From positions 1 through 23,736 of the IMG/VR virus record IMGVR_UViG_3300040801_001279: 23,736 nucleotides of DNA. One strand, 5' to 3'. Position numbers and translations under genes: made by a program. The notes under the pieces are model-generated. The model saw only the letters and a program-made list of their open reading frames with translations, had not been told where the DNA came from and did no database searches. The stretch is from a virus. Position 1 is the first letter of the stretch, and each line of letters starts with the position of its first letter. This document shows positions 3,387 through 23,736 of this stretch, piece after piece.

Positions 3387-4751
3387 TTAAGACTGGCTAA
3401 TTATAGAGGGAACTTTTGCTTTCCGTAACATATCCGCTATATGACTAGACATGCCTACGTTCCCATGAATTACTATACCAAATCCTGGTTCTATATTTTC
3501 AATAATCGATCTAAGACTTCCTAGACCTGATACAACATTAAAATCGATCTTATCTTTAAACTCTCCAGGTACAATGACTCTACCAAAGCTAGTCACAGCG
3601 CCTGTGTGTAGTTGTAATATCCAAACTTTATTTCCGTCATGTGCCCACTCAAATCTGACTGGGCCTAATACTTTAGCTATACTATTATACAAAGTAAGTA
3701 CACTATTTCTAATATTTCTAGGAAGGGGTATAGGGCTCTCTTCAGCCTGCATAAAATTATCGCCAAAACCTAGTACACCTTCTACAGTAATATTCTCTCC
3801 ATCGCTTAGTAATGCTCCAGAGTAATGGGCAGGAACCTCGTTCTGCCCTAAGCAAGAAGCCAGTACTTTACCTGTAGGGTCATCTTTATCCATAAGTTCA
3901 TAAGGATTTTCCCAAACTCTAGCAGTAGTGTATTTACCAGGTACTTGTACATTTGGACATGTACGTACCCACTCATTAGAGCTTCCAGTAGGTTCTCCAA
4001 AACTAAAGGGAGATAGGTTAGGATTACGAGGATACACAGTGGTACGAGGAACAGGAAATCCTAGAGTATCTGCCATTAGTAAACCATAAGCTTTATCTCC
4101 GATAAGTCTACTGAAATCTGTGGGCCAAGATAAATGGTGAGGTACTTTAACAAAAGGTACTTTTTCTATCTCCCACACTATAGTATGGTGGTTAGAATAA
4201 CCCCTCCGAGTAGGGTGAATACTAAATTCAAGTCTAGTCTCCTTGGAGTACTTATCAATACCTGGATCAAACCCATAAACTATTTGTAGTAGTTCGGAAG
4301 CAAATCCTTTAGGAAAAGTAGCTACCTGCTCAGTAGAAGTTTCTACAAATCTAGGTACTACTCCGGGGGCAAACTCTACCATGTCGTTCTGCAGTACTCC
4401 CGACACTCCTCCGTCATTTACGTCTATAGTCTCATTAACTATGGTGTATAAACCCTGACTAGCTAGTCTAGCTAATTCACTCATAGCAAAAGTTAAGCCT
4501 TTAATCCCATAAATAAACTCATTACTTCTAGGTTGGTCGGGCAAAAAACTCCTAATATTAATTGACTGCTCTCCACTTGCCTCAAATAATGCGGTCAAGT
4601 AGTCTAAAGGAGTGTTTTTAATAGTATCTGGGGTATACCCTGAAATTCTCTGGTACCTAACTTGTAGGTTTGGGTCAAAGCTTACGAACTGTGCTACGTT
4701 ATGTTCTTCCGCTAATTTATTCAATACTTCGTCTTTGTAAAATCCTTTCAC
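3387..4751 (-). CDS. PEP synthase/PPDK-like ATP-grasp protein with C-terminal phosphohistidine domain
   Basis: 454 residues. The central and C-terminal parts resemble the ATP-binding half of pyruvate phosphate dikinase, PEP synthase and rifampin phosphotransferase. RSFLPDQPRSNEF (around 67) recalls the RSS...ED phosphate loop; VPAHYSGALL and VEGVLGFGDNFM (about 310-335) recall the strand pair ending in a glycine-rich turn; and FEWAHDGNKVWILQLHTGA (around 370) recalls the family's 'DIEWA..g.iyiLQ' motif. The protein ends with a short mobile-domain sequence, GMSSHIADMLRKAKVPSI, equivalent to the TSH-containing phosphohistidine loop, with H437 as candidate acceptor. No PEP/pyruvate TIM-barrel is present. 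The start is GTG, one base overlapping the upstream TAG, with a full AAGGAGG 6 bases away. The substrate is unknown; a phosphotransfer role is inferred. Confidence 0.6.
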   Translation of the reverse strand: MKGFYKDEVLNKLAEEHNVAQFVSFDPNLQVRYQRISGYTPDTIKNTPLDYLTALFEASGEQSINIRSFLPDQPRSNEFIYGIKGLTFAMSELARLASQGLYTIVNETIDVNDGGVSGVLQNDMVEFAPGVVPRFVETSTEQVATFPKGFASELLQIVYGFDPGIDKYSKETRLEFSIHPTRRGYSNHHTIVWEIEKVPFVKVPHHLSWPTDFSRLIGDKAYGLLMADTLGFPVPRTTVYPRNPNLSPFSFGEPTGSSNEWVRTCPNVQVPGKYTTARVWENPYELMDKDDPTGKVLASCLGQNEVPAHYSGALLSDGENITVEGVLGFGDNFMQAEESPIPLPRNIRNSVLTLYNSIAKVLGPVRFEWAHDGNKVWILQLHTGAVTSFGRVIVPGEFKDKIDFNVVSGLGSLRSIIENIEPGFGIVIHGNVGMSSHIADMLRKAKVPSIISQS

Positions 4752-8217: not shown

Positions 8218-8565
8218 TCACTTATCGAGAGCTTCATATATCCTATTTAAGATAAGCTCATTTGTTATTTTGTCTACTGTATCATAAAAATATACTAAAG
8301 TCAACTCTTTTTTTCTCTCTGTATACTCTACCTTTAAATTATCTCTTCTCTTCTGTCCATAGAAAGCTTCTTTACTACTATGAAAATGTTTATTAAATTT
8401 AAAATGCTGTTCACCCTGACACTCAATTAAAATACCTAAATTTTTTATAAAAAAGTCAAAAAATAAACGTGTACCTTTATAATACACATAGTACTCTGAT
8501 AATACAACATCGTAAGGAAATAGTTGTTTAATTTTTATATACACATCGTCTGCTATTTTCGACAT
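8218..8565 (-). CDS. Small PD-(D/E)XK-fold (EDxHD-type) endonuclease, homing-like
   Basis: 115 residues. The core RLFFDFFIKNLGILIECQGEQHF places D37, E48, Q50 and H54 in the pattern of EDxHD/Vsr-like nucleases ('lDFyip..ll.iE.qG.qHy'). It is followed by a QKRRDNLKVEYTERKK helix and a hydrophobic strand (LTLVYFYD). In other phages and bacteria this nuclease is often fused behind zinc-ribbon repeats and can act as a homing endonuclease. Here it stands alone, directly after an HNH gene that carries such repeats. The ATG overlaps the HNH stop by one base, with AGGTG upstream. Catalytic function is likely; the homing role is inferred. Confidence 0.7.
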   Translation of the reverse strand: MSKIADDVYIKIKQLFPYDVVLSEYYVYYKGTRLFFDFFIKNLGILIECQGEQHFKFNKHFHSSKEAFYGQKRRDNLKVEYTERKKELTLVYFYDTVDKITNELILNRIYEALDK

Positions 8566-9662
8566 TATTTACACCTAAGTTCGTTATAACCACAATTAGG
8601 TAATCTATGTACCTGTTTGTGACACTTTTTACACAACGTGATACAATTATCTATATCAGCTGACTCTATTGGGTTATCAATAACTGGGTCTATATGATGA
8701 CAGTGTAGTTCTACGTCTACAGCTTTACATTTCTGACACTGGTACTTGTCTCTTTTCAAGACGAGTTTTCTTAATTGAGGCTGTACTTCTCTAGACGTAG
8801 CAAGCTTAAAGTCTTTCGGATACAGATGCTGGCCAAAGGTGGGACAAGCTTGTTTACATCCTTTAGAACAGTATAAATTATTATCAGCAGTAACTTTTCC
8901 GTGTATGCTATGAAGCCTAGCATAAACTTCACTAGCTTTAGGTACATATAATCTACCACAGTAAGTGCAGTACGTACCTAATAAATCTAAGCCCTCCTTA
9001 GAAGTTACCTTAACTACTGGGTGATACTGCGATAATCTAGAACTATAGGTAGCGTATAAAGGCAGGTTTTTATTGGATACACCTCCCTTATACGCTGGTG
9101 GGTGTGCATGTAAGTTTAATTCACGACAAATATTACACCGATAACCACTCAAAAAACTACTAAAGCGCATACTACATCTGTGTCCTTTATCACAAATAAA
9201 ATCTAGTATGTCTTTGTTACTGTTATACTCTTTAGACCTTAATCCATAACCGGCCTCAGAAACTATTTGGATGACTTCAGAGTACGTTTTCTTGATATGG
9301 CCTGAACAATAAGGGCACCTGACTCCTTTTTTAAAAGCTTGCCAAGTAATGGCATGGGTATGTCCTTCAGCACATTTGTAACTTAACTTACTTGTACTGT
9401 TAACATAAGCTGTACTAAGTAGATTAAACCCTACTTCCTCAAAAGATTTACGTATGTAATCTAAAGTAGGCTTTGCCTTTTTTGAGCAATGCGCACAACC
9501 AATACCGCTACGTAAAGCGTCTAAAGATATATAATGCGTATGCCCTTTTGGACATACGCACTTTAATTTAGTACGAGCATTTACATATTCTGAAGATAGT
9601 AAAGTGTATCCCTTAGATTTAAAAACTTGAAACACTTCTGTAAAGATTAATTTATTACTCAT
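8565..9662 (-). CDS. HNH endonuclease with three zinc-ribbon repeats
   Basis: 365 residues. Three tandem repeats of about 55-60 residues (roughly 8-59, 70-119, 129-179) each read 'GY.L.S..Y.n....L...C..GH.....f..f..G..C..C', a zinc-ribbon unit for DNA recognition. A second cysteine set follows (C232/C235 with C265, C269, C273). The C-terminal HNH domain spans about 296-352 with C309/C312, H322/H323, N339, C344/C347 and H352. Family members are site-specific nucleases, often mobile homing enzymes. It overlaps the end of recA by 8 bases (the ATG is inside the recA stop region), with AGGAT upstream. The gene sits between recA and the replication genes without disturbing either frame. Confidence 0.85.
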   Translation of the reverse strand: MSNKLIFTEVFQVFKSKGYTLLSSEYVNARTKLKCVCPKGHTHYISLDALRSGIGCAHCSKKAKPTLDYIRKSFEEVGFNLLSTAYVNSTSKLSYKCAEGHTHAITWQAFKKGVRCPYCSGHIKKTYSEVIQIVSEAGYGLRSKEYNSNKDILDFICDKGHRCSMRFSSFLSGYRCNICRELNLHAHPPAYKGGVSNKNLPLYATYSSRLSQYHPVVKVTSKEGLDLLGTYCTYCGRLYVPKASEVYARLHSIHGKVTADNNLYCSKGCKQACPTFGQHLYPKDFKLATSREVQPQLRKLVLKRDKYQCQKCKAVDVELHCHHIDPVIDNPIESADIDNCITLCKKCHKQVHRLPNCGYNELRCK

Positions 9663-10719: not shown

Positions 10720-11281
10720 ATAATCTCCTAAGTTTTTCTAAATCGAATCCCGAATGTTTTTCTGCGTCGACTCCATTAGCCTCAACCATCCGTTCAACTT
10801 TAATTTCATTTTCTATATATTTATTTTCATTCAATATAGCTATAACTCTGTCGGTAATCCATTTACAGTTCTCGCTAAAAATACTTATACTGACTGGGTA
10901 GCTAAGATCTAGAGTTTCCTCAAAAATAAATAGACCATAGATTATATTCGCACAATCTTGTAGACTTTCGTCGAATGAACATGATAGCTCTACTTGCCTA
11001 TTTTTAAGAAAATTTGATATTAGCACCCTATCTTTTTGTCTATTAGATACTAAAGAACAAACCTCATTGTGGTAAAACTCCATTAAGTTATAAAATAAAT
11101 CTACTAATTCATCTAGCTTCTTTACTTTATGTAGAACAGGCTTCTTAGTAACTTTATATCCTACAGATTTTAGATAAGCAATGCAAGCTTCCCTAACTTC
11201 CTTCTCAGGCACATTATCTCTTAAGAAGCCCAGGGAGTCTAAGGCTTTAACTTTAGTACGTAAAGCTTCTAGTTCTTTCAT
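10688..11281 (-). CDS. Hypothetical protein, 197 aa, between clamp and recA
   Basis: I do not recognise this protein. It is helical and charged, opening with a coiled-coil-like helix (MKELEALRTKVKALDSL), then a short winged-helix-like stretch (VREACIAYLKSVGYKVTKK, about 29-47). A helical core rich in Phe/Tyr follows, and a charged tail ends LRRLYDEEDGRGEK. Its start overlaps the clamp stop (TAATG) and no clear Shine-Dalgarno is present, so translation is probably coupled to the clamp. It overlaps recA by 32 bases. Position suggests a replication or recombination accessory factor; a clamp-loader or RecA-partner role is conceivable but unsupported by motifs. Confidence 0.65.
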   Translation of the reverse strand: MKELEALRTKVKALDSLGFLRDNVPEKEVREACIAYLKSVGYKVTKKPVLHKVKKLDELVDLFYNLMEFYHNEVCSLVSNRQKDRVLISNFLKNRQVELSCSFDESLQDCANIIYGLFIFEETLDLSYPVSISIFSENCKWITDRVIAILNENKYIENEIKVERMVEANGVDAEKHSGFDLEKLRRLYDEEDGRGEK

Positions 11282-12414
11282 TATCTACGTCTTACTGGTG
11301 TAATTAAGGCCTTTTGGTTTCTAAATTGTTCTGAATCAAATATCAGTACTCCCCCATCATCAGAAAACTTCATATTGATAACGTCATCCATAATTGCATT
11401 TAATGTTTGAAATAAGTAACTACCATTAATATCTACTATTAGCTCACCATCAAAATTTATATCTCCATGATACTCAGACTCTGCAAAATCAGATCTTACT
11501 ATAAGCCTATTATTATTTATACTGATAGTTAGCCTACTATGGTCTTCCACATCTAAAGTATTCATGAAAGGAACAAAACTACTCAACATAATATCTTTAT
11601 TTATAGTAATTTCATGAGTATAGTTTTCGAAAGCTTGAGCATACTGCGGGTACTCCTCTCCAATTAATAGATTTCCATGAAGGGTAGTAGTATTAATTAA
11701 GGCTTTTATCTTACCGTCTTTAATACTAAACCTAACATCACTTTCAGCATCTATAATTTTGCGAAGTGCCATAATAAAATTATAAGATATAGTAAAATTA
11801 CCTTCAGTAAGATTACCAGTATTAGAGGTCCTGTACTCAGACAACATCTGAGCGTCTGTTCCGGCAAAGTATATCGAGTTATCCTCAAAGTTAATATTAA
11901 CACCTTGGAGAAAAGTGCGAACAGAGGCTGGATTAATCGCATAAATTACTTTAGATATGGCTAAACGTAATGTAGCTGAATTAATCTCTAGGGTTGTTTC
12001 CTCAAAAGGAGTAGGTACGGCTACCTTTTGAGAAGGGTATAATTTAAGTTTTAGCTTATGTGTGGTCTTTTTATTGCCAATAAAATGGTTATCTAAAGAC
12101 AAAGATAAATCATTTTTCAATGCTTTAAACTTTACACCTTTTACACCAGAATCATCTTCCCAGCTAGAAAAAGAGTTTAAAAAAGAACTTAATTTACCAA
12201 AAGACACACAAGTAACTCCTGGGTCCTGTACTTTACAATTTGTTATTAAATGGGTTAAAGCCAAAGAACCGTTATTACAAAGTAGTATTAATTCCCCAGT
12301 GTTCCTTACATCTAAAACTACTTGGCCTATCACATCGTCTGTGTTTTGCCTGGCTACAGAGTTTAATAACTTCATCGCTCTCTGTATATCTTCTAAATTC
12401 ACTACAAATTCCAT
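11281..12414 (-). CDS. dnaN: DNA polymerase sliding clamp, beta/DnaN-like
   Basis: 377 residues, the size of bacterial beta-clamp. The three-repeat clamp pattern shows in MEFVVNLEDIQRAMKLLNSVA (domain 1), the region TLEINSATLRLAISKVIYAIN near 140-160 followed by LQGVNINFEDNSIYFAGTDAQML (domain 2 start, like 'l.gv.l......l..vaTDg.rl'), and HEITINKDIMLSSF (domain 3 start). It ends FRNQKALITPVRRR, equivalent to the beta C-terminus 'vvmPmrl'. It would tether the replicative polymerase, which is not in this window. It is the first gene after the promoter at 12460-12488, with GAGGAG five bases before the ATG, so it heads the replication operon. Confidence 0.85.
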   Translation of the reverse strand: MEFVVNLEDIQRAMKLLNSVARQNTDDVIGQVVLDVRNTGELILLCNNGSLALTHLITNCKVQDPGVTCVSFGKLSSFLNSFSSWEDDSGVKGVKFKALKNDLSLSLDNHFIGNKKTTHKLKLKLYPSQKVAVPTPFEETTLEINSATLRLAISKVIYAINPASVRTFLQGVNINFEDNSIYFAGTDAQMLSEYRTSNTGNLTEGNFTISYNFIMALRKIIDAESDVRFSIKDGKIKALINTTTLHGNLLIGEEYPQYAQAFENYTHEITINKDIMLSSFVPFMNTLDVEDHSRLTISINNNRLIVRSDFAESEYHGDINFDGELIVDINGSYLFQTLNAIMDDVINMKFSDDGGVLIFDSEQFRNQKALITPVRRR

Positions 12415-12494: not shown

Positions 12495-15194
12495 TTACAC
12501 CTTATATGGAAATATTTTACCTAGTATAAAGTGGTTGTACAACCCACCATCTAGCCCTATAAGATAACACTCATTTTGTGAAGGCACCTCTATATAGTAA
12601 TAACCAGTTTCAGGGTCTGTATCTGCATAACCCACAAGCAGCTTAGTCTCTTTATCATAGGCTAGTACTTTGGTAGCCTGCGCCTTACCGTAAGCGGTAG
12701 CGTACCCTTGCACATAGCAATCTGATACTATGAGTATGTTGTCTCTTTGCATCTTGTCAATAAAAGTTAAAGTATCTCTAGAAAATTCACTATTACTAAA
12801 CCATACTTCAGCTACTGTACCCAAAACACTATCACTAGAAGACCCTAAAAGTAGATCCTGACTAGTGTTTACTAAGTCATTAATTTCTGCATATATAGTT
12901 ATATCCTCATTTACTTTTAAAGCACTATTTGCACCAACATCATACCCTTTGTAAACTGAGTAATAAGACCAAGAGGTATCTAGGTGCTTATTTGGTATAG
13001 TAAGGATGTGCTGGTTAGAAGAATCAACCATTTCCAAATTTATACTATTAGTAGTTCTACTATTATCTGGCCAAACTACCTCCCCAGAATTTACCTTGAA
13101 ATTAAAAAAGGAAGCTGTAAAATTAGGATTATTATTCCACCCACCTTTGGTTAAATAAAAAGGTATAGTATCACTAGTAGAGAAAGTGTAAGATCCCAAC
13201 TGTGACCACCCTGTGCCGTTCCATCTATATGCTATAAAGGAGTCTCCAGACCTTACCATACGAAGCTTACCTTCCGTTATTGTTGTACTATAAGAACCTC
13301 TTCCAGTCCAACTACTACCATTATAAGTGTCGTAGTTATATTTATATCCCCCCCCAGAGTATCTATAAGATAATTGCGTAAGTCCATTATTAGGAAGCCT
13401 CATCAGTATACCTATACTCCAAGACTCTATACTTGGCATACTATCTAGACTAAACTCTACCTGTATGTCAAAATCACCTTTAAAATAATATATACTATAT
13501 ACACTAGAAGGTGTATCTACAGCTCTAAGTTTATTGTCATATATAGAAAAAACACCTGATATAGTCCATAACTTTTCATTTGCTAAGTCACCATCGTTAC
13601 CTTCAAAAGTATCATCTACAGACTCCTGCCACATTATTTCGTCTTCTGTGTAGTACATCTGGATACATTTATAATAGGGTTCTCCTTTATCTATAATTCG
13701 CCTACCTGAATCGAATTTAGCAAAAAACATCATGTCTGTAGTTATGTTATCATAATAGCGAGAACCTCCAAAATTAATATAACTAGAAGAACTAGTTAAT
13801 TCTATAGCAGAACTACCTAAATTACTTGTTACAGGTGTTGTATTATTAGTACTTACTATATTTAGTCTATTTGCTGTAGAGTCTACATAACCATAAGAGG
13901 AGTTAAAATGATGTACTGATAGAAACCCATCCCAGACTTCCTGGCTGGCTGTTCTAGCCGCTTTAAGAGATACACTTTTTGCCGTAGCTATTCTCCAAGT
14001 ACCATTAGATACACCGTAGAAGAAGTGGTAAAATCCGTCTTTTACTATGAAATAAGGAAATATACCAGCACTTACCGTGTCATAGACTCCAAGTGTATTA
14101 ATGTTAATCCACCGACTATAATTTTCCCAATGGATACCATCTATAGAGTCTGCATAATAACCCAACCATCTGGTTAAGGAAGAATTATAAATCTCAAACA
14201 GTAATTTATACTTACCCTCTTCATATGTTACCGTACTTGTTCTGATTTCTGTATAACCTATTTCTGGTATATCGTTATTATGTATTACCATCTGGTGGCC
14301 TTCCCAATTTATACCATCGGTTGAGTCACAATAAATAATATAGCCCTCATAAGGGGAATTTTTGTATCCTCCGTACCACATTTTATAAGTATTACCTTGT
14401 TTAAGTACCGCACTTTTTATAGTGTATTTATCAGAATAGTAGGTCTTACCTGTAGACACCACAAGTTGGTGGTTAGTCCAAGATATACCATCAGTAGATT
14501 CACAATACATAATTCTCCAAGTGGTACCATCAGACCCAGAATACCACATTTTGTACAAACCATCCTCATATAGAACTGTTCCTGGGTGGTGATTTTGGGT
14601 ATCGTAAGTATGGTCCCAGCCAAAAGCCAGTCTATGGTTTGTCCAAGTTACTAAGTCGGTAGACTCACAGTATAATAACCCCCACTTAGACCCATTATGT
14701 CCACAAGGCCACATTTGATACTTGTCACCAACTTTTATTACGCATCCACTAAGTATATGTGAAGTATCATAGGTGCCTTCTACTCCTGTATTTCTAAATA
14801 GGCTTAAGCCAACTTCATTAGTTTCAGATAAATACTCTATATTATCATCGTGAGAGGAGTCAAAATACATATAGAATATATTAGAATAAGTAGAAGATAG
14901 TTTTATAGGTTTAACCCAAAAGAAGGCTTCTTCAGCTACAGCGTCCCAGGAGTCTAACTCACAAAATAAAGGGTTTTCTACACCGTTTACAACCTGAGAA
15001 AAAATTATTTTTTTCCTATTAGCTACACTACTCGTACCACCTAAAGAATCAAAAATAAAAGTTATATCCGCATTTGTAATACCTGTATCATTTGCTAACT
15101 TAAACACAAAAGGTACTACGGATGCTCCCGAAACTGTTGTAGGTGGAATATAAAACTGTATCCTTTTAGTTACGTCCCATGATGTTAGTCCCAT
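12495..15194 (-). CDS. Tail/fibre protein: DUF2341, five-bladed glycosidase-like propeller, LamG
   Basis: 899 residues. Residues 1-115 read like DUF2341 (NRKKI, ELDSWD, FFWVKP, YMYFDSSHDDN). Residues about 141-407 contain five units built around 'G.YKMWYSG ... YCESTDGISW', the blade pattern of GH43/GH32/GH130-type five-bladed propellers. From about 419 (EVWDGFLSVHHF ... YVDST) a LamG/ConA-like domain resumes, followed by a second ConA-like region (about 539-690). Residues 824-896 form a carboxypeptidase-regulatory-like domain ending YNHFILGKIFP. It is probably a virion surface protein for receptor binding or glycan cleavage; catalytic residues were not identified. AAGGT precedes the ATG weakly, 5 bases after the upstream gene. 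The stop lies 7 bases before the -35 box. Confidence 0.8.
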   Translation of the reverse strand: MGLTSWDVTKRIQFYIPPTTVSGASVVPFVFKLANDTGITNADITFIFDSLGGTSSVANRKKIIFSQVVNGVENPLFCELDSWDAVAEEAFFWVKPIKLSSTYSNIFYMYFDSSHDDNIEYLSETNEVGLSLFRNTGVEGTYDTSHILSGCVIKVGDKYQMWPCGHNGSKWGLLYCESTDLVTWTNHRLAFGWDHTYDTQNHHPGTVLYEDGLYKMWYSGSDGTTWRIMYCESTDGISWTNHQLVVSTGKTYYSDKYTIKSAVLKQGNTYKMWYGGYKNSPYEGYIIYCDSTDGINWEGHQMVIHNNDIPEIGYTEIRTSTVTYEEGKYKLLFEIYNSSLTRWLGYYADSIDGIHWENYSRWININTLGVYDTVSAGIFPYFIVKDGFYHFFYGVSNGTWRIATAKSVSLKAARTASQEVWDGFLSVHHFNSSYGYVDSTANRLNIVSTNNTTPVTSNLGSSAIELTSSSSYINFGGSRYYDNITTDMMFFAKFDSGRRIIDKGEPYYKCIQMYYTEDEIMWQESVDDTFEGNDGDLANEKLWTISGVFSIYDNKLRAVDTPSSVYSIYYFKGDFDIQVEFSLDSMPSIESWSIGILMRLPNNGLTQLSYRYSGGGYKYNYDTYNGSSWTGRGSYSTTITEGKLRMVRSGDSFIAYRWNGTGWSQLGSYTFSTSDTIPFYLTKGGWNNNPNFTASFFNFKVNSGEVVWPDNSRTTNSINLEMVDSSNQHILTIPNKHLDTSWSYYSVYKGYDVGANSALKVNEDITIYAEINDLVNTSQDLLLGSSSDSVLGTVAEVWFSNSEFSRDTLTFIDKMQRDNILIVSDCYVQGYATAYGKAQATKVLAYDKETKLLVGYADTDPETGYYYIEVPSQNECYLIGLDGGLYNHFILGKIFPYKV
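13974..14774 (-). repeat. Five propeller-blade repeats in coding sequence
   Basis: Five protein repeats of roughly 45-60 residues lie within the large tail gene, each starting near a 'YDT/YSD/YTE' segment and carrying 'KYxMWY.G' and 'YC.STDGI.W'. Blades 2 and 3 are most alike (KMWYSGSDG, KMWYGGYKN), while blades 4 and 5 are degenerate (KLLFEIYN, HFFYGVSN). Five blades match one complete glycosidase-type propeller, so this reads as a full domain. Confidence 0.7.
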
Positions 15195-15199
15195 AATAT

Positions 15200-16465
15200 T
15201 TACCTTATAAACATAAAATTAAATCTACACGAAGGCATGGCGGAAGAAGCTGTACCTCTTGCTGTACCTACTCTTGGAGGATATGTGTTAGTATATGCAG
15301 GCACAGACCCGTTTTTTCCATGGAACGCCCACGACACGTAATCGTTATTTGTGCTTGTACTGGAGGATGGATGCGAGGTATAAAACGCACCTAAAGTGCT
15401 CCCTATAGACCAATGGCCGTCACCTTCTCCACCCGATAAACAATAATTATAGTAATTATTACTCAATGAGTAAGAAGTTAGGGTAGACATGTCATATTCG
15501 TACCATATAGTACCCTCTTGGTAGGATTTATTTACTAAAACCCCCACGACAGACTCTGGATCATTAGTATCAAAAGAAGTATTAAATATATTTTCTGGGT
15601 TAGCTCTGACCACTTCATATATGTCAGAGAAGTATAGGTATTTCCAAGTCCCATCGTCTATGCCCATGCTGGTATGCATAAACATACTGGCTCCTTCTGA
15701 AATGATACTCCTAATATCTATTGTAGAGGCCTGACTATTTCCTTCTGTATTAATAAGTAACATATCAGCAATATTTATATTTTCACGCATAGCATTTATT
15801 GGTAAGCATACTTCCCAGTCTCCAGAAAAATCTCTATCCCATCTAGCACACATTGTCCAACCGCCCCCTTGTGTAGTCATATCACAGTATACTTGAATAG
15901 GGTTTGTATAACTATCTGGTTGAATCCAATAAACCCCATTAAAGGTAGCTGCTGGGTTATAGTCTTTTATATCTTTTGCTGACTTTCCAGGATTTAATTC
16001 TGAAAAACCATAGTCATCAAAAACGGCAGGCATGACTAAAGCGGCTATTAAATGGTTATAACTAATACCTCCAGAGTCATCTAAGCAAACTAGAAAACAA
16101 GTACCACTTGTAGTGCTGTCTAAGAAAAATGAACCACTGCTTTCAGAAAATGAGGTGTCCATATGATTATATGTAGTTCTATTATAAGATATCACCTCTC
16201 GAATAACTGGACCAAAATCGTCTAAGATTTGTCCTGTAAAATAGTAAGGAGGTATAGTAGTATCTACTATTCCTGAAGGGGTCGTAAACTTATGTAAAAC
16301 TTCTAAATTGTATGTACCTATTAAAAGAGGTTTTTCTGCTGGAGCTTTATAAATATCACTGATAATCTCAAGACTATAAGACTGTAGCTTATTACGTACA
16401 GCAGGTGGATTATAGCTATCTACAATTATTTCTAGATTGTATAAGCTAACCTTATTAGTCTTCAT
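15200..16465 (-). CDS. Tail protein with fibrinogen-like C-terminal domain
   Basis: 421 residues. The N-terminus has three short repeats (residues 9-63, 'YNLEI...Y.PPA'). Residues 73-147 form a carboxypeptidase-regulatory-like domain ending SYNHLIAALVMP, as in two other tail genes here. Residues 152-421 look like a fibrinogen-related domain: GKSAKDIKDYN, GVYWIQPDSYTNPIQVYCDMTTQGGGWTM (split here for length: GVYWIQP, then QVYCDMTTQGGGWTMCARWD), and the end SCRFNFMFIR. Such domains in ficolins and intelectins bind acetylated sugars or exocyclic glycan groups, so receptor binding is inferred. Only a weak GGATA site precedes the ATG, 3 bases after the upstream stop, suggesting coupled translation. 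Confidence 0.8.
   Translation of the reverse strand: MKTNKVSLYNLEIIVDSYNPPAVRNKLQSYSLEIISDIYKAPAEKPLLIGTYNLEVLHKFTTPSGIVDTTIPPYYFTGQILDDFGPVIREVISYNRTTYNHMDTSFSESSGSFFLDSTTSGTCFLVCLDDSGGISYNHLIAALVMPAVFDDYGFSELNPGKSAKDIKDYNPAATFNGVYWIQPDSYTNPIQVYCDMTTQGGGWTMCARWDRDFSGDWEVCLPINAMRENINIADMLLINTEGNSQASTIDIRSIISEGASMFMHTSMGIDDGTWKYLYFSDIYEVVRANPENIFNTSFDTNDPESVVGVLVNKSYQEGTIWYEYDMSTLTSYSLSNNYYNYCLSGGEGDGHWSIGSTLGAFYTSHPSSSTSTNNDYVSWAFHGKNGSVPAYTNTYPPRVGTARGTASSAMPSCRFNFMFIR
16277..16441 (-). repeat. Three tandem ~21-residue coding repeats
   Basis: Within the fibrinogen-like tail protein, YNLEIIVDSYNPPA (9-22), YSLEIISDIYKAPA (30-43) and YNLEVLHKFTTP (52-63) form three units with a period of about 21-22 residues. 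Each has the pattern Y-x-L-E-(I/V)-(I/L). The third is the most diverged. They probably form a connector or trimerisation stem joining this protein to the tail. Confidence 0.55.
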
Positions 16466-16468
16466 ATA

Positions 16469-18163
16469 TTATCCAGAAGTGGTAGTTATAAAGCCAAACT
16501 CTGCCCCAACTAAATCAGTATTGGTCCAAGCAGCCCCTGTGGCAGGATTTTTTTCATCTATTAAATAACAACCTCTATAAGCTACGTCCTCAGGTAAAGC
16601 TTTTATACCGGAATAGGTAGTGTCTCCGACAACAATTAAGGATCTAAAGGACATATCGTTGGGGTTTGCGTAGTCTAACTGTCTTTTAGCAAAAATACTA
16701 TGACTTATCGCAAAAATATCACCTACATCAGGTAAAGCACTCATATTATAGGTGTCTTTTTCTCCCAACTGTTCTGAGTATATATATTCTCCCCTATCTC
16801 CAGAAGGCATTTGCCAGTTAACTCTTAGTCTGGGAGCTTCCGCATGAAAAGGGTCATTATAATAGCTATATCCTCTATATTTTAAATATATCCAGTTTTC
16901 CTCTCTATTAGTGTATCTATGTTTAACTATTAATGTAATTTTATTATCCTCTTCTTGCCAGTCGTGCCTATCTACAAGTTCTTGTATAATAGAACCAATA
17001 TTTAGACCTGTATCGGTGTCATCATTTAAGAGTACCCCTATAGTGCTATATACCTTGGCAGCACAAAAATTAGTCATGTTATGCACTTGCCATAGAGCTG
17101 TGGGAACGATGGCCCCTTCGGGTGTACCTGATTTAATGGCTGTAATTCTTTGTTCGTTGTCATTAGGATAATTTAGTTCACTTGTTGAATGAACTGTTGC
17201 ATACATATAAGCACTAATTATTTTAGCATTTCTTGGTATACTTACACTTGAGAATCTATACCACCAATAGGTTGGTGTGAATGACGATGAAGAATTTATA
17301 TAGTAGTTACCTCCTGGCAAATAAGAGCTGGTATTACTAAAGTAGTTGGAGCCACCCTGTTCCCAATCACTACCATCATCAGCAGCACTATATACAAAAA
17401 AATTATCACTAAATGTGGTTATATCATCTTGTATATGTTTATGTTCATCTATTAAGGTATAATTTTCTACCCCGGAAGTTGTAGGCGGAAGACTAAACTC
17501 AGAGTGTGTACCCTGACTTATTGGATATACTAAAGAAACTTCACAATTACCTAAAAAATCATTATTAACGTCACCAGAAGTGTCTGCTATATATAAGTCT
17601 TCAATATAAGCATAAGGTTCATAGGTAGCTAAGGCTTGTTGACAACTAAGTCTTATCTTATTTACATAATTAGTACCATAGCCAGCAGTATCAATATTAG
17701 TGAGAGAAATAGCTAAGTGCTCGTTTATTCTAACGTCTAAAGTACCTGATACTGTATGGGTTTTAACTTTTATCTCCACATAATTCCAATCGTTGAATTG
17801 TAGACTATGCCCCAAACCATAATTGCTTGTAGAGCCTGCTTTATACCATGAGAAGTTGTGGTCAAAAAGTCTTAAAGAGCTTTGCTCATTATCTCCATCT
17901 AAGAATATAAGCTTTACGTGTCCAGCATCTAACTTAACTTTTTTAAGGGCAAATCCTACTATAAGTTCTTCATAGTTAGCGTTTAGATATTTACCTATAT
18001 GGTCATAGTTCCTATCAGTAAAAGCACTAGTCATAGTTAAAGCCGCGCCATTCTTCCTACCAACTCCAGGCTCTATAGAGAATAAGCTATACCTGGTGTC
18101 TTCTTCCCATTTTAGCGGTATAAAATCATAGTTTTTAAAACTATCAAAAAACAGTAAACTCAT
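16469..18163 (-). CDS. Tail structural protein: ConA-like plus DNRLRE-like insert
   Basis: 564 residues. The N-terminal 200 residues (MSLLFFDSFKNY ... SWYKAGSTSNYG ... LQFNDWNYVEIKVK ... DLYIADTSGDVNNDFLGNC) match a recurrent phage ConA-like tail module. NYTLIDEHKHIQDDITTF (234-251) begins its second domain, which resumes at about 455 (GEYIYSEQLGEKDTY) and finishes with NPATGAAWT near 539-547. Between them, about 252-452, is a separate domain (VSIPRNAKIISAYMY, NIGSIIQELVDRHDW, ITLIVKHR, PRLRVNW) resembling DNRLRE-type beta domains. It probably lies on the virion surface. GAGGAG precedes the ATG by 6 bases and the gap to the upstream gene is 3 bases. Confidence 0.75.
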   Translation of the reverse strand: MSLLFFDSFKNYDFIPLKWEEDTRYSLFSIEPGVGRKNGAALTMTSAFTDRNYDHIGKYLNANYEELIVGFALKKVKLDAGHVKLIFLDGDNEQSSLRLFDHNFSWYKAGSTSNYGLGHSLQFNDWNYVEIKVKTHTVSGTLDVRINEHLAISLTNIDTAGYGTNYVNKIRLSCQQALATYEPYAYIEDLYIADTSGDVNNDFLGNCEVSLVYPISQGTHSEFSLPPTTSGVENYTLIDEHKHIQDDITTFSDNFFVYSAADDGSDWEQGGSNYFSNTSSYLPGGNYYINSSSSFTPTYWWYRFSSVSIPRNAKIISAYMYATVHSTSELNYPNDNEQRITAIKSGTPEGAIVPTALWQVHNMTNFCAAKVYSTIGVLLNDDTDTGLNIGSIIQELVDRHDWQEEDNKITLIVKHRYTNREENWIYLKYRGYSYYNDPFHAEAPRLRVNWQMPSGDRGEYIYSEQLGEKDTYNMSALPDVGDIFAISHSIFAKRQLDYANPNDMSFRSLIVVGDTTYSGIKALPEDVAYRGCYLIDEKNPATGAAWTNTDLVGAEFGFITTTSG

Positions 18164-18166
18164 TTA

Positions 18167-20413
18167 TTACTCCTCATCATATATCCAAAATTTCTCTGCT
18201 TGTCTGTAAGTCCAGTCCAGATTACTATACGGTGCTGGAGCAACATATCCTGGATCTTCAAATATTAACTTGACATTTTCTGGGGCTGGAGGCTCATAAG
18301 ATCTGCCTACTATATTTGCAGTTAGATTATTTGTATCTTTATACATAAGAGGTTGTATACTACCAGATAAAGAGTCCTCGGCCTGCGCAAGACATTTTAT
18401 CGCGCCTAATAAAGACCTAGACCAAGTTTTTTTACCTTTAACCAACACGTAGGCAGCTAGATTACGGTAGTCTAAGTCATAAGGAATTATGGTGGCTCCT
18501 AAATCTAAGGATCTGTACAAAGTTACCCTATCTATAAGGTCTCGTATAGCGGCGTCTACGGTAGCATAATTCTTCATATTAAATACATACTTTACGTTAA
18601 CTTTATTTCTTGTGTAAATAGTATCCGTGTCTTCTTGATATCCGGTAACTTCTATCCGCCAAGTTCTATTTTTGTCAACTTTATACACTTTGTTTTCACC
18701 AGACACATAAAAATAATGATAATCCTCCTGGGAATTAGTAAAAAACATAAGTTCAACAAACCTAGTCCATCTTTCCTCAAAACGTTTTATATTTAATGTT
18801 ACAATATTAGTTTTAGGGTCTATCCACTCAGGAATTGTAGTAAAGTTAGCTATAGGTTTAGCAGTAATGTAAGACTTTAAATTAGAAGAGTTTCGTACTC
18901 CCGTTATATAGGCTGCAAGAAAATGAGTAGAAAAACCTTCGGTTACACTGTAGAAATTAAAGGTCTTATAAGGGTCTTTTACGTCCCCTGAAATAGAGTG
19001 AGTATTTGAAATCTTATGTCCTACTTCTCCTTGTATTGATATTGAGTTTTGTACAAAATAACTCCCAAAATTTATATAAGCTGCCAAGTCTTTAACATTA
19101 TCTGCCTGTCCACTGTGCCAACCTATGATATAAGCTTTTAAGTCTAATTTTCTCATAGCATAAATACTGCTGTAAAGGTCTCTATAACTAGAACTTTTAC
19201 AGCTATATTGTATGGTAGCCCGCAAGTCTTTATGTTCAAACAAAGGTACTAGGATCATTCTTTTAATATTAATTGTTCTAGGGACAATTCTAGCCTCTAA
19301 ATCTAGATATTTACCTACAGCGTCAATGTATGCTTTTAAGTTTTTTGCCGCATTAACCCCTATATAAGCTAATAAGTCTTGTTTATACACACCGTGTATA
19401 TATCCAGGAAGGTCAAAAGGAATAGCTGTACCAAATACTGCGTTTATTTTGGCCTGGATATCTACTGGTGTAGAAGCACCTATAATAGCTTGGAGGTCAT
19501 TAGGCTGATAACCTTGTATTAAAAAGGCACTTAAATTGTACGCAGCATATCCATGTAAAGACGCGCCTAAATCTACGGGGAGTATACATTTTATAAGAGA
19601 AGTTAAATCTTTATGTATAGCAAAGAATCCTGCATTAAGTGTACCAAATAAATCCAAAGTAGAAAAAGAAGTGATACGAGCGCTTAAGTCAAACGTAGCC
19701 CAACCAAATAAAGATGCAGCGATAATATTATTAGACCTAGCTAATATTCTATGGAAAGAAGCCCCCAACTCTGCACTACCCTTCCAATATACACCTTCTA
19801 TAGTAGAAGCAAGATTCCTAATTTCTATAATATTTACATAACCACCTATATCTACTGGTTGAATATCTTGTAGGTAAGCTCCCAAATCTATAGGTATTTT
19901 ACTTCCCTTAACAAACTTCATATAGCCGCTAAGATCTATATTTTGTCTCAGAGATTGTCTAACAAAAGAGCTGAAACTTATACTAGTGTTTTGTGTAGGA
20001 CGTATAAAAGGAATTAAATCGGATTGCCCGGCTGTGGCGGCTCTCTGAAAAGTGCCCAAGTCTAAAAAAGCAAATATAGCAAATAAGTCTGCGGATAAAT
20101 CAGCGTATGGAGGCTGGGTAGTTAAAAATGCTCCTAAATCTCTGATTCCACCATACAAACAAGGAAGTTTAAGGGTCTGAATACCAGAGGCGGAATAGCC
20201 TACAATAATCGTTTTACACTCTTTTACATAAGTATACGTAGAGTCCTGATATAACTTCATAACTTCGATAGAAGCCTGTAAATTTGTAGTGCTAGAACTT
20301 TTAGGTCTCAACGAGAAGTTAATATTAACCTCGTCAAATGCAGGCGCAGTATATCCACCACTACCAAAAGTGAACGCAATATTATCTATATTAGGTGGAA
20401 TATAATTTGCCAT
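18167..20413 (-). CDS. Tail protein built on ~12-residue DLxAxI repeats
   Basis: 748 residues; not a family I can name. About 30 copies of a six-residue core, (D/N)-(L/I)-x-(A/G)-x-(I/L), occur. Twenty-two are consecutive between residues 160 and 447, mostly 12 or 13 residues apart, with steps of 15-16 where 3-4 residues are added. This suggests a solenoid or fibre shaft. A non-repeat domain lies at about 520-630 (WTRFVELMFFTN, YHYFYVSGENKVYKV), and five looser repeats follow to 701. Both ends carry a similar motif (PPNIDNIAFTFGSGGYTAP at 6-24, PPAPENVKLIFEDPGYVAP at 708-726). One base separates it from the upstream gene and no Shine-Dalgarno is evident, so coupled translation is likely. A tail location is inferred from neighbours. 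Confidence 0.7.
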   Translation of the reverse strand: MANYIPPNIDNIAFTFGSGGYTAPAFDEVNINFSLRPKSSSTTNLQASIEVMKLYQDSTYTYVKECKTIIVGYSASGIQTLKLPCLYGGIRDLGAFLTTQPPYADLSADLFAIFAFLDLGTFQRAATAGQSDLIPFIRPTQNTSISFSSFVRQSLRQNIDLSGYMKFVKGSKIPIDLGAYLQDIQPVDIGGYVNIIEIRNLASTIEGVYWKGSAELGASFHRILARSNNIIAASLFGWATFDLSARITSFSTLDLFGTLNAGFFAIHKDLTSLIKCILPVDLGASLHGYAAYNLSAFLIQGYQPNDLQAIIGASTPVDIQAKINAVFGTAIPFDLPGYIHGVYKQDLLAYIGVNAAKNLKAYIDAVGKYLDLEARIVPRTINIKRMILVPLFEHKDLRATIQYSCKSSSYRDLYSSIYAMRKLDLKAYIIGWHSGQADNVKDLAAYINFGSYFVQNSISIQGEVGHKISNTHSISGDVKDPYKTFNFYSVTEGFSTHFLAAYITGVRNSSNLKSYITAKPIANFTTIPEWIDPKTNIVTLNIKRFEERWTRFVELMFFTNSQEDYHYFYVSGENKVYKVDKNRTWRIEVTGYQEDTDTIYTRNKVNVKYVFNMKNYATVDAAIRDLIDRVTLYRSLDLGATIIPYDLDYRNLAAYVLVKGKKTWSRSLLGAIKCLAQAEDSLSGSIQPLMYKDTNNLTANIVGRSYEPPAPENVKLIFEDPGYVAPAPYSNLDWTYRQAEKFWIYDEE
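19073..19936 (-). repeat. Tandem 12-residue (about 36-base) coding repeat
   Basis: The repeat core begins at residues 160, 176, 188, 200, 215, 230, 242, 254, 269, 281, 293, 306, 318, 334, 346, 358, 371, 382, 396, 412, 424 and 442 of the tail protein. Examples are DLGAYL, DLSARI, DLGASL, NLSAFL, DLPGYI, NLKAYI and DLEARI. Copies differ strongly at the DNA level, so the array is old and held by selection on protein, not a fresh slippage product. Confidence 0.8.
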
Positions 20414-20414
20414 A

Positions 20415-23400
20415 TTAAGGTTCTATTTTATCAAATATTTGGGCATTAAAATCTGCTCTAGGGTGAAGAGCGGCTATGTAATGTTCCTCATTAAACATGG
20501 TATCTATACTAAATGTGCCTCCTGTTCCTGCTATAGTTGTTCCTGCTAATTCACCTGTAGACCTTCTATGTAAATTAAGAACTACACCTGAAGCAGTATT
20601 AACGGGGTCATTTACTATTCCAGAACATAAATATCTAACATAAAATGAATATAAAGGTGTAGTATAGGATAACCCAAGGTCATTAAGACTAACATCAGCA
20701 TACCAAAAATAGTCTACGCCACTATAAGTAGCTAAAGAAGTAGATACTTCTGTGCCTACTGGTGTACCGGAAATTGTTGGAAAAATAGCAACATCGTCTA
20801 CATTATAAAATGTTGTATCATAGTAGTTAGTACCTTCTAAACCACTAACAGTAACCATAAGTTGAAGTGCTTGATTAAACCCATAAACTTTACTATATCC
20901 TATAGGATAGGGGTTCATTACAGTAATCTCGTATCTATTTATATTAAGTAATTGGTCAAAATCACTATTATAACTTGCTTCAAGCCACGTAGCTGATCTT
21001 GCTATTTTTGAAATTTTGATAGACTGAATACTATTAGCAGAGTAGTATCCTAAATATTGTATAGATACTGGTGCAGAAGAAAGGTCTTCAACCGTTACCA
21101 TATTAGATACGGAGTCTATTATACCATTACCGACACTTCTTACCGCCCCCGAAGACAGTACTAAGCCATAAGATTTAAAATTAGAAGGGTCAATAACTAC
21201 GTTTGACTGTAGGTCATCACTGCCTAAACCTGAGTTCAAATATCCCGATGTATCATACTCAGCTAAATATATGGAACCAACGGTACGATTACCAATTTCA
21301 CAAAGATTTGTCCATGCTGTAGCTGAAGAAATAACCCCTACACACTCTAAAGTAAACTCGGTTTGTAATGTTGATAAATTACTATTAGTGGATTGCAGAT
21401 AATCATCTACACCATCTAATTTAAGAGCCTTTCCTATAACACCGTCTATTTGACTTAAATAAGTTGTCATACTACCATAAGAGGTTAAATTCCTACCATT
21501 AAAGGTAGAATCTTTAACTGTAGTACTTGGATCTTGGCTTAAATGGTATACTGCTTCATAATTGTTTTCCCATACTCTTTTAGAGGGGTAGCTTCCTATA
21601 TCATCTACGTGTCCGCTTACTATCTCAGAAATTGATCTTGTTGGAGGAGTAAAGTTTTCAGTATATCGGCCAGTTCCTTTAGTTATTATTAGATCATCAA
21701 TATATCCATAATAATAGTTATCAGAAGTACCTGCTCCTCTAAACCCAACCATTAATGGATAATTAGTATCATTAATATTTACACTTAAACCTGTTCTCTC
21801 TGTTTGTAGAATACCATCATAAAATGACCTCCAGGTAGTTCCTTGTCTACTTACAGCGTAGTGCCTCCACTGTGACCCATCATTTCCTGGAAAGTTTAAG
21901 TCGTTAGCAGTAGTGCCTGCAAACCTGAAGCAACCAGTTCCCCCAGATTTTCTTATGAATATTTCAAAGTCGTCTACGTTTAGATGCCCAGCCGAACCTT
22001 TAGATAGCACCTCCATGTAATTAGGAGTTCCGAATTTAACTAAGCACCAAAATTCAATAGTAAAATCTGAGGTGCCTAATTGTGTAGCAGTGTCTGATGC
22101 AGATCCTATAGTTAAATAATCCCCACTTCCATCAAAATACCCAGACGTTCCTCCAAAAACACTTTGGTCTGATTCAATATGAGTGTTCCCGTATCCTGTA
22201 ATGGATTTCGGAGTGGGGGAAATATCAGTAATTGTTGTTGACCCATCAGCACCATCAAAGGGTAAGGCCAATACTACATTGCTCCAATAAGGATCTTCAT
22301 TTTGATTATTATCTACATGTGTTGAATCATAATACAATTTTAGAACTGTGTTATCCGTACTAGAGACTATAGGTACTTTTGTCCATAACTGAGCGCTTCT
22401 TTCTATTGAATCCCAACGTTCAATTTCAACAAAGAGTTGTTCTCCACTTGCTACGTCCTCTATTGCCAGTTTTTTTGGTGTAACTAAATCATTATATTGA
22501 AATGATTTTGTTGGTGGGGTAAAATCTGCTGTATATCTGGCTACTCCTTTTGTGATTCTTAGGTCGTCTATGTATCCAAGCATATCTCCAGCAGGATTCC
22601 AGTCAAAACGTCCTATTCTTAAATTAGTAAAAGATTGTGCTGCTCCAGATATAGCAATTGTATCTCCAAGAACCCCATCAACAAAAATAAGGAGATTATC
22701 TCCACTTCTAGCCAGTGCAACGTGTGACCATTTATTAGCCATACTTCCTGTAGTATTTGAGGCTCCAGTCGTATATGTTCCAGAAGTATTCTGGAACCAC
22801 CCAACGATTCTAGTTGCAGTCCCTTGATATACTCCCCAGGGCCTATTACCAATAGATGTACCACAAATCACTATACCGTTACCGTTTGCATCTGGGTCAT
22901 TCGTTGGTCTAAACCAACATTCAACAGTAAAATCTCCACTACCCATATCAATATCGCTAGAATACGGAATACTTAAATAATCTCCATTACCATCAAAATA
23001 ACAGGATGTTACTCCAAACTTACTTTGGGTATTTTCTATATGGGCATTCCCAACTGCTGTAACAGTTTTCGGAGTTGCTGATATATCAGTAATCGTGGTA
23101 CTTCCGTCTGTTCCATCAAAAGGCAAAGCAAGAACAACATTATCCCAGTGCGGGTCATCAGAAGGAACTAAAGTTGTATATGAAGCTGTAGAGTAGTCAT
23201 TAGAGCCCCCTAAGAAGGGTGCAGTATATACAGTAGAGACAGAAGAAGAGCCATTATAACCACCAAGTAAATAAACCCTGGAGTTAGTAACTACGGCGGA
23301 AGAGCTATGTAAAACTCCAGGAAGACTTGTGCCTGTAGTCCAAGGACCAAGGGACCCATCTAAATTAATTTGGGCTGTATACACGGTAGAAACAGAAGTA

Positions 23401-23736
23401 CTTGTGCTACCCCCCAATAAGTAAACTCTTGAGGTAGTAACTACGGCGGAAGAATTATTTAAAACTCCTGGAAGACTTGTGCTAGTAGTCCAGGTCCCTA
23501 AAGTCCCATCTGAATTAATGGGTGCTGTATAAACAGTATCAATAGATGCCCAAGCATCTCCAGCTCCACCCAACAAATAAACCCTCGAATTAGTAACTAC
23601 CGCAGTAGGATAAGCCATTACTCCAGGCAAACCCGTACTCGAAGTCCAATTTCCTATAGTGCCATCTGAATTAATGGGGGCAGTATAAACAGTATCGACC
23701 CAAGTACTACTATAGCCCCCAAGTAGATAGACCTGT
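20415..23736 (-). CDS. Tail/fibre protein: Kelch, LamG x3, DUF2341 part, Ig-like (5' end cut)
   Basis: The frame stays open to the right window edge: 35 further codons precede the TTG at 23630 and encode another Kelch unit (VYLLGGYSSTWVDTVYTAP), so the true start lies outside. Numbering from that TTG: Kelch units to about 142, LamG-1 158-378, the C-terminal half of a DUF2341-like domain 379-443 (PKKLAIED, VEIERWDS, LYYDSTHVDN), LamG-2 445-665, LamG-3 686-895 (VWENNYEAVYHLS, KALKLDGVDDYL), an Ig-like stretch 900-1000, and a carboxypeptidase-regulatory-like C-terminus 1003-1071. LamG units carry the phage signature GYIDDLRITKGVARYT. It is probably a large receptor-binding or tail-surface protein. 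The next gene starts one base after its stop. Confidence 0.85.
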   Translation of the reverse strand, partial: QVYLLGGYSSTWVDTVYTAPINSDGTIGNWTSSTGLPGVMAYPTAVVTNSRVYLLGGAGDAWASIDTVYTAPINSDGTLGTWTTSTSLPGVLNNSSAVVTTSRVYLLGGSTSTSVSTVYTAQINLDGSLGPWTTGTSLPGVLHSSSAVVTNSRVYLLGGYNGSSSVSTVYTAPFLGGSNDYSTASYTTLVPSDDPHWDNVVLALPFDGTDGSTTITDISATPKTVTAVGNAHIENTQSKFGVTSCYFDGNGDYLSIPYSSDIDMGSGDFTVECWFRPTNDPDANGNGIVICGTSIGNRPWGVYQGTATRIVGWFQNTSGTYTTGASNTTGSMANKWSHVALARSGDNLLIFVDGVLGDTIAISGAAQSFTNLRIGRFDWNPAGDMLGYIDDLRITKGVARYTADFTPPTKSFQYNDLVTPKKLAIEDVASGEQLFVEIERWDSIERSAQLWTKVPIVSSTDNTVLKLYYDSTHVDNNQNEDPYWSNVVLALPFDGADGSTTITDISPTPKSITGYGNTHIESDQSVFGGTSGYFDGSGDYLTIGSASDTATQLGTSDFTIEFWCLVKFGTPNYMEVLSKGSAGHLNVDDFEIFIRKSGGTGCFRFAGTTANDLNFPGNDGSQWRHYAVSRQGTTWRSFYDGILQTERTGLSVNINDTNYPLMVGFRGAGTSDNYYYGYIDDLIITKGTGRYTENFTPPTRSISEIVSGHVDDIGSYPSKRVWENNYEAVYHLSQDPSTTVKDSTFNGRNLTSYGSMTTYLSQIDGVIGKALKLDGVDDYLQSTNSNLSTLQTEFTLECVGVISSATAWTNLCEIGNRTVGSIYLAEYDTSGYLNSGLGSDDLQSNVVIDPSNFKSYGLVLSSGAVRSVGNGIIDSVSNMVTVEDLSSAPVSIQYLGYYSANSIQSIKISKIARSATWLEASYNSDFDQLLNINRYEITVMNPYPIGYSKVYGFNQALQLMVTVSGLEGTNYYDTTFYNVDDVAIFPTISGTPVGTEVSTSLATYSGVDYFWYADVSLNDLGLSYTTPLYSFYVRYLCSGIVNDPVNTASGVVLNLHRRSTGELAGTTIAGTGGTFSIDTMFNEEHYIAALHPRADFNAQIFDKIEP
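21636..23159 (-). repeat. Paralogous LamG cassettes (22497-23159 and 21636-22298)
   Basis: Two LamG-like domains of about 221 residues in the same gene are close relatives. Both open with D-P-x-W-x-NVVLALPFDG, continue GSTTITDIS.TPK, share YFDG.GDYL, and close with GYIDDL.ITKG..RYT..FTPPT. The DUF2341-like segment lies between them (about 22302-22496). They look like one cassette used twice, diverged mainly in the central strands. Confidence 0.75.
23205..23736 (-). repeat. Kelch-type repeats, period about 150-156 bases
   Basis: Four units, the first and last incomplete, begin with (R)VYLLGG and contain VYTAPIN.DGTLG.W....SLPGV. Their starts are at about 23732, 23582, 23426 and 23276, so the period is 50-52 residues. 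DNA copies remain visibly similar, for example the stretch around 23292-23345 against that around 23441-23494, indicating fairly recent expansion or recombination. A Kelch propeller needs more blades, so further units are expected beyond the edge. Confidence 0.8.

Follow-up and report, generated by a model that had tools for sequence, protein, structure and literature searches.

A conserved 12-residue-repeat protein of the tail-tip gene block of uncultured large phages, probably a spacer or scaffold for sugar-binding proteins

The locus

The window, by which we mean the whole 23,736-nucleotide stretch analysed (the 23.7-kb IMG/VR virus record IMGVR_UViG_3300040801_001279), encodes a 748-residue protein built largely from a short repeat with the core DLxAxI (Table 1). 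The gene lies near the end of a block of distal-tail adhesin genes, ahead of replication genes for the sliding clamp, RecA and DnaB.

Table 1. Features of the repeat gene and its neighbours in the window
Feature	Position	Strand	Basis
Adhesin with Kelch and two LamG domains, cut by window end	20415..23735	-	Pfam LamG_3 5.1e-27, Kelch_1 8.4e-06
Whole gene, DLxAxI repeat protein	18167..20413	-	748-aa open reading frame; ~60 relatives
N-terminal motif YxPPxxxNIxFxFxxGGYTAPxFxxV, residues 5-33	20315..20401	-	kept in most window-like members; C-terminus similar
Conserved two-Cys block, residues 55-93 (KEC...GYS..GIQ.L..PC.YGGIRDL)	20135..20251	-	alignment A1
Main repeat array, residues 44-447	19073..20284	-	weight-matrix scan
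Constant-length core, residues 238-436	19106..19702	-	193-202 aa in 26 members
Conserved non-repeat domain, residues 522-634	18512..18850	-	alignment A10; profile
Five final units, residues 637-701	18311..18505	-	weight-matrix scan
C-terminal tail with copy of N-terminal motif, residues 705-748	18170..18301	-	local alignment to N-terminus
Three more adhesin-like genes (together)	12495..18163	-	Pfam and PHROGs
Adhesin-like gene	16469-18163	-	Pfam and PHROGs
Adhesin-like gene, fibrinogen-like start	15200-16465	-	Pfam and PHROGs
Adhesin-like gene	12495-15194	-	Pfam and PHROGs
Sliding clamp, first replication-block gene, landmark	11281..12414	-	Pfam DNA_pol3_beta_2 6.5e-10; synteny

Two other minus-strand genes of the window were recorded in their own right. 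Adjoining RecA, a 365-aa protein (8565-9662) combines CxxC zinc-ribbon-like repeats with an HNH domain, and its relatives occupy differing places in other loci, in the manner of a homing endonuclease gene. A 454-aa open reading frame (3387-4751) has no Pfam match and no relative among the neighbour set; by eye, its C-terminus resembles the PEP-utiliser mobile domain.

Repeat unit and protein layout

The preliminary description had counted about 30 copies of the repeat core, a number borne out by a position weight matrix trained on relatives only, with the window protein and its nearest relative excluded. At a score of ≥5 the matrix finds 30 units in the window protein (31 at ≥3), compared with a mean of 0.8 and a maximum of 5 in 500 shuffles of that protein. 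The protein has 19 matches to the strict motif [DN][LI]x[AG]x[IL], where 5000 shuffles averaged 0.41 and never exceeded 4. The extent first given for the repeats, 19067-20284 (residues 44-449), is right, and the reported run of 22 consecutive units (residues ~160-447) is nearly so, although near residues 216, 230 and 383 it takes in two or three degenerate units to which the matrix gives a low score or none.

Across 1179 units from 43 proteins the consensus is D/N-L-x-A-x-I-x-G/A-hydrophobic, with Asp at position 1 in 63% of units and Asn in another 30%, Leu2 conserved in 86%, Ala4 in 78% and Ile6 in 64%. Units in the 43 members are spaced by 12 residues in 364 cases, 13 in 148, 14 in 82, 16 in 72 and 15 in 44. 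A metal-binding Asp ladder, as had been suggested, is unlikely, because Asn takes the first position so often, Leu2 and Ala4 are better kept, and no second recurrent acidic position exists in these units. Since Asp is less well conserved than Leu and Ala and is often replaced by Asn, a role for Asp/Asn1 as a strand or turn cap would fit the unit better than one as a metal ligand.

The window protein is only partly repeat: a separate conserved domain of ~110 residues interrupts the units and is followed by five more. The profile of this domain matches all 11 long family-bearing records. Window-like members share a layout of N-terminal motif, two-Cys block, repeats of variable length, constant core, ~110-aa domain and a few final units, and a C-terminal copy of the N-terminal motif is often present. 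In the window protein, local alignment of the two termini scores 53, compared with a maximum of 43 in 1000 shuffles, and the two ends are alike in eight of eight tested members (p≤0.04 by shuffling), these having been preselected by visible resemblance. The core part, 199 residues in the window protein, measures 193-202 aa in 26 members that are 31-52% identical to it. Most family members are 600-750 aa in size; L377 (959 aa) and L389 (1359 aa) have additional units inserted past the N-terminal part, L389 reaching 46 loose motifs.

A family from uncultured viral contigs

Searching IMG/VR with the window protein alone returned no relatives. Through DNA patterns of two to three consecutive units, profiles of the first members and clamp-anchored searches, all in IMG/VR, we recovered ~60 distinct related proteins, some of them fragmentary, on contigs from uncultured viruses, the longest of 545 kb. 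They include two branches linked by profile comparison (hhalign probability 100, E 1.9e-55, 483 columns) and more distant members, one of which, on a megaphage-size record of 545,322 bp (G012, locus L171, 220387-222033, minus strand), has a DLxVxF-like variant of the unit.

No family member was found by tblastn of the window protein and its relatives against 50,697 phage records, where the sole match involved a single relative and lay in its LamG region; the ~110-aa domain alone gave a single chance match in these records (E≤10). In a pattern scan of prokaryote genomes, no member was encoded in stretches among the matches listed.

Against Pfam, the window protein matches no family at E≤1, curlin, RTX, YadA, adenovirus-fibre and pentapeptide repeats included, and 23 family members give five single-member matches, all at E 0.017 or worse. 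Its best PHROG is phrog_20818 (E 0.047). In the other branch, phrog_4390 (3.7e-06) and phrog_6011 (0.00024) match two of 12 members, possibly over their LamG part, and phrog_6745, called an endolysin, matches five of 26 domains (best E 0.00013), its alignment spanning just 56 of 396 positions in one inspected member. A PDB profile search with the full family and with the repeat core yielded no matching chain; the one PDB match of the ~110-aa domain, MCM6 (E 0.87), is at chance level and was rejected. No 12-residue tail-fibre repeat came up in a search of the literature. There is thus no confident match to a known tail family and nothing convincing in Pfam, PHROGs or the PDB, in agreement with the earlier failure to assign the repeat to a named family. 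Judged by these comparisons, the proteins make up an undescribed family whose repeat and companion domain have no convincing match in the libraries searched. Both family and repeat are new; repeat-built distal-tail proteins are already known as a kind.

Gene order across relatives

The sliding clamp lies at most five genes downstream of the repeat gene in 30 of 33 loci and is immediately next in 22. When loci were instead collected through the clamp, blind to the repeat, the repeat protein turned up ahead of it in every one of the 26 loci whose upstream sequence reaches 3.4 kb or more; six of these are on contigs absent from the earlier repeat-based searches. Another 11 clamp loci lacked a repeat-protein match but, having 0.9-2.8 kb upstream, were left uncounted as too short, since the window's own repeat gene is 5.7 kb from its clamp. 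In every tested locus the repeat gene has a single copy and a fixed place. In seven loci, including L126:11966-12730, a thymidylate-synthase-like gene stands between repeat gene and clamp.

A 228-kb relative (G001, IMGVR_UViG_3300035698_010479) shares the window's gene order and provides a wider view. Its late genes run from terminase, portal and major head protein through a 7430-aa tape-measure-like reading frame and uncharacterised genes to adhesins related to the window's LamG genes and the repeat protein, past which come further adhesins and then sliding clamp, RecA and DnaB. The repeat gene therefore sits within the tail gene block, after the head and tape-measure genes and beside LamG, Kelch and DUF2341 neighbours, as expected of the tail protein that it had been proposed to encode.

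Members of the other branch link the repeat protein with LamG domains. L142 has LamG domains fused at its C-terminus (Pfam 6.9e-33), and L114, L034 and L008, of similar length, align with it across nearly their entire length and by this similarity would also carry a C-terminal LamG. In L152 a separate LamG gene (4.9e-19) is immediately upstream. The window member itself is without a lectin domain, its adhesin link consisting of gene neighbourhood and the fusions in the other branch.

No tail-sheath family (PF04984) is present in 11 long records, which are possibly incomplete, and on this basis the tails of these phages are probably non-contractile. A large aquatic phage lineage (PMC12619734) was set aside because contractile tail proteins are present there.

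Two late genes of G001 merit separate description. If the 7430-aa reading frame (171772-194061, minus strand), found at the tape-measure position, is the tape measure, the tail would be ~1.1 micrometres long at 0.15 nm per residue; the longest tail known, that of P74-26, measures just under 1 micrometre (PMC10034513). The same frame contains LDYDGDQ between residues 2200 and 2300, a stretch resembling the DxDGD motif of RNA polymerase subunits of the beta-prime type, and the frame may thus include a virion polymerase. The terminase large subunit (207931-210942, minus strand) is 1004 aa long, with matches to phrog_9666 and to an endonuclease family in its first half that may reflect an intein or homing insertion.

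Structure prediction

AlphaFold2 modelled the whole protein with a mean pLDDT of 38.8 and the 199-aa core with 46.1, both low confidence. Each model places one β-strand in each unit, in partial support, at that confidence, of the structure first proposed. Since both models are poor, we make no choice between a solenoid and a trimeric fibre. The folds closest to the core model (mean pLDDT 46) are β-solenoids at uninformative scores, the best at Z 6.9 (SufB), and a BFVD fold search with a low-confidence model gave no match at E≤0.001; fold searches on such low-pLDDT models were excluded as fold evidence. Residue correlations between units at lags 1-6 are weak, inconsistent and confounded by relatedness, giving no clear signal for parallel or antiparallel stacking, and turn lengths are not correlated. 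By our estimate, a monomeric solenoid of 22 units would span ~4-5 nm, short for a fibre.

Proposed role

The reading we consider best, with a probability of about 0.7, is that this conserved and previously unlisted protein of the tail-tip block is a structural component of the distal tail (the tail-tip or adhesion apparatus) in a lineage of large tailed phages, with one β-strand per unit, and that it spaces or scaffolds the sugar-binding proteins by which the phage holds on to its host cell. Each 12-residue unit would form a short β-strand, D/N-L-x-A-x-I, followed by a turn of ~5 residues, with Leu2, Ala4 and Ile6 on one side, packed into a continuous β core, and Asp/Asn1 most likely capping strand or turn. 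Docking to other tail proteins is the probable task of the terminal motifs and of the non-repeat domain towards the C-terminus, and the repeat block between these parts would space or support adjacent or fused lectin-like adhesins of LamG, Kelch, DUF2341 and fibrinogen-like types. We prefer this role because lectin-like proteins neighbour members of the family or are fused to them, and lectin domains of the LamG3 type are also known on the tail fibres of jumbo phages (PMC7824862); we count in its favour, too, that repeat number varies between conserved ends. A bolder version, in which the DLxAxI block is a β architecture unseen in phage tails and the universal adhesin carrier of a widespread lineage of uncultured large phages, is tentative and somewhat doubtful.

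The closest rival is a fixed-size hub or scaffold of the tail tip that forms no arm, in which the work is done by the constant core and the 110-aa domain, with the repeats merely building the body. The constant core, the narrow size range of most members and the single copy in a fixed place would all suit such a hub; the variable repeat number outside the core, extreme in L389, and the C-terminal LamG domains on some members do not, and we regard it as unlikely. It is quite improbable that the protein decorates the virion elsewhere, as a head or tail-tube fibre or whisker: gene order alone does not fix a virion position, and head and tail whiskers are possible on jumbo phages (PMC7824862), but the gene sits amid the distal adhesin genes, distant from the head genes. 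Least probable of all is a tailspike-like enzyme whose β-helix cleaves host surface sugars, as the weak resemblance of the poor model to polygalacturonase and tailspike solenoids (Foldseek) is set against the lack of any Pfam enzyme-family match in the window protein and invariant core residues that are the Leu, Ala, Pro and Cys of the repeat core, with no constant set of acids.

Whether or not its product is a spacer or scaffold, the repeat gene offers a fixed landmark in a lineage of phages for which no cultured member was found among the 50,697 phage records, and a family profile would aid in finding and placing such phages in metagenomes. The family is also a compact target for structural work, and, if the solenoid or fibre is true, its regular unit could be useful for protein design.

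Comparison with known systems

One close parallel is with the LamG/concanavalin-like lectin tail proteins of jumbo phages (PMC7824862), which the family resembles in gene block and in the LamG domains fused to some members; it differs in having a repeat block and a 110-aa domain outside LamG, and in a window member that is lectin-free. The triple-stranded β-helix of T4 gp5, with its repeat VxGxxxxx (PMC4576200), is likewise a short β-strand repeat of a phage tail-tip protein, as is predicted for the window protein, but its unit is an 8-residue VxG, whereas here DLxAxI recurs every 12-16 residues in what is a candidate trimer. Flat β-solenoids (Rhagium antifreeze protein, CsgA and FapC) would share small and hydrophobic inward residues and short β-strand units with the family; they are weak matches of a poor model, have no sequence match and are unrelated in function and origin. 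Pentapeptide repeats, A(D/N)LxX with a period of 5, likewise repeat (D/N)L close to a small residue, but the period here is 12-16 and no Pfam match connects the two.
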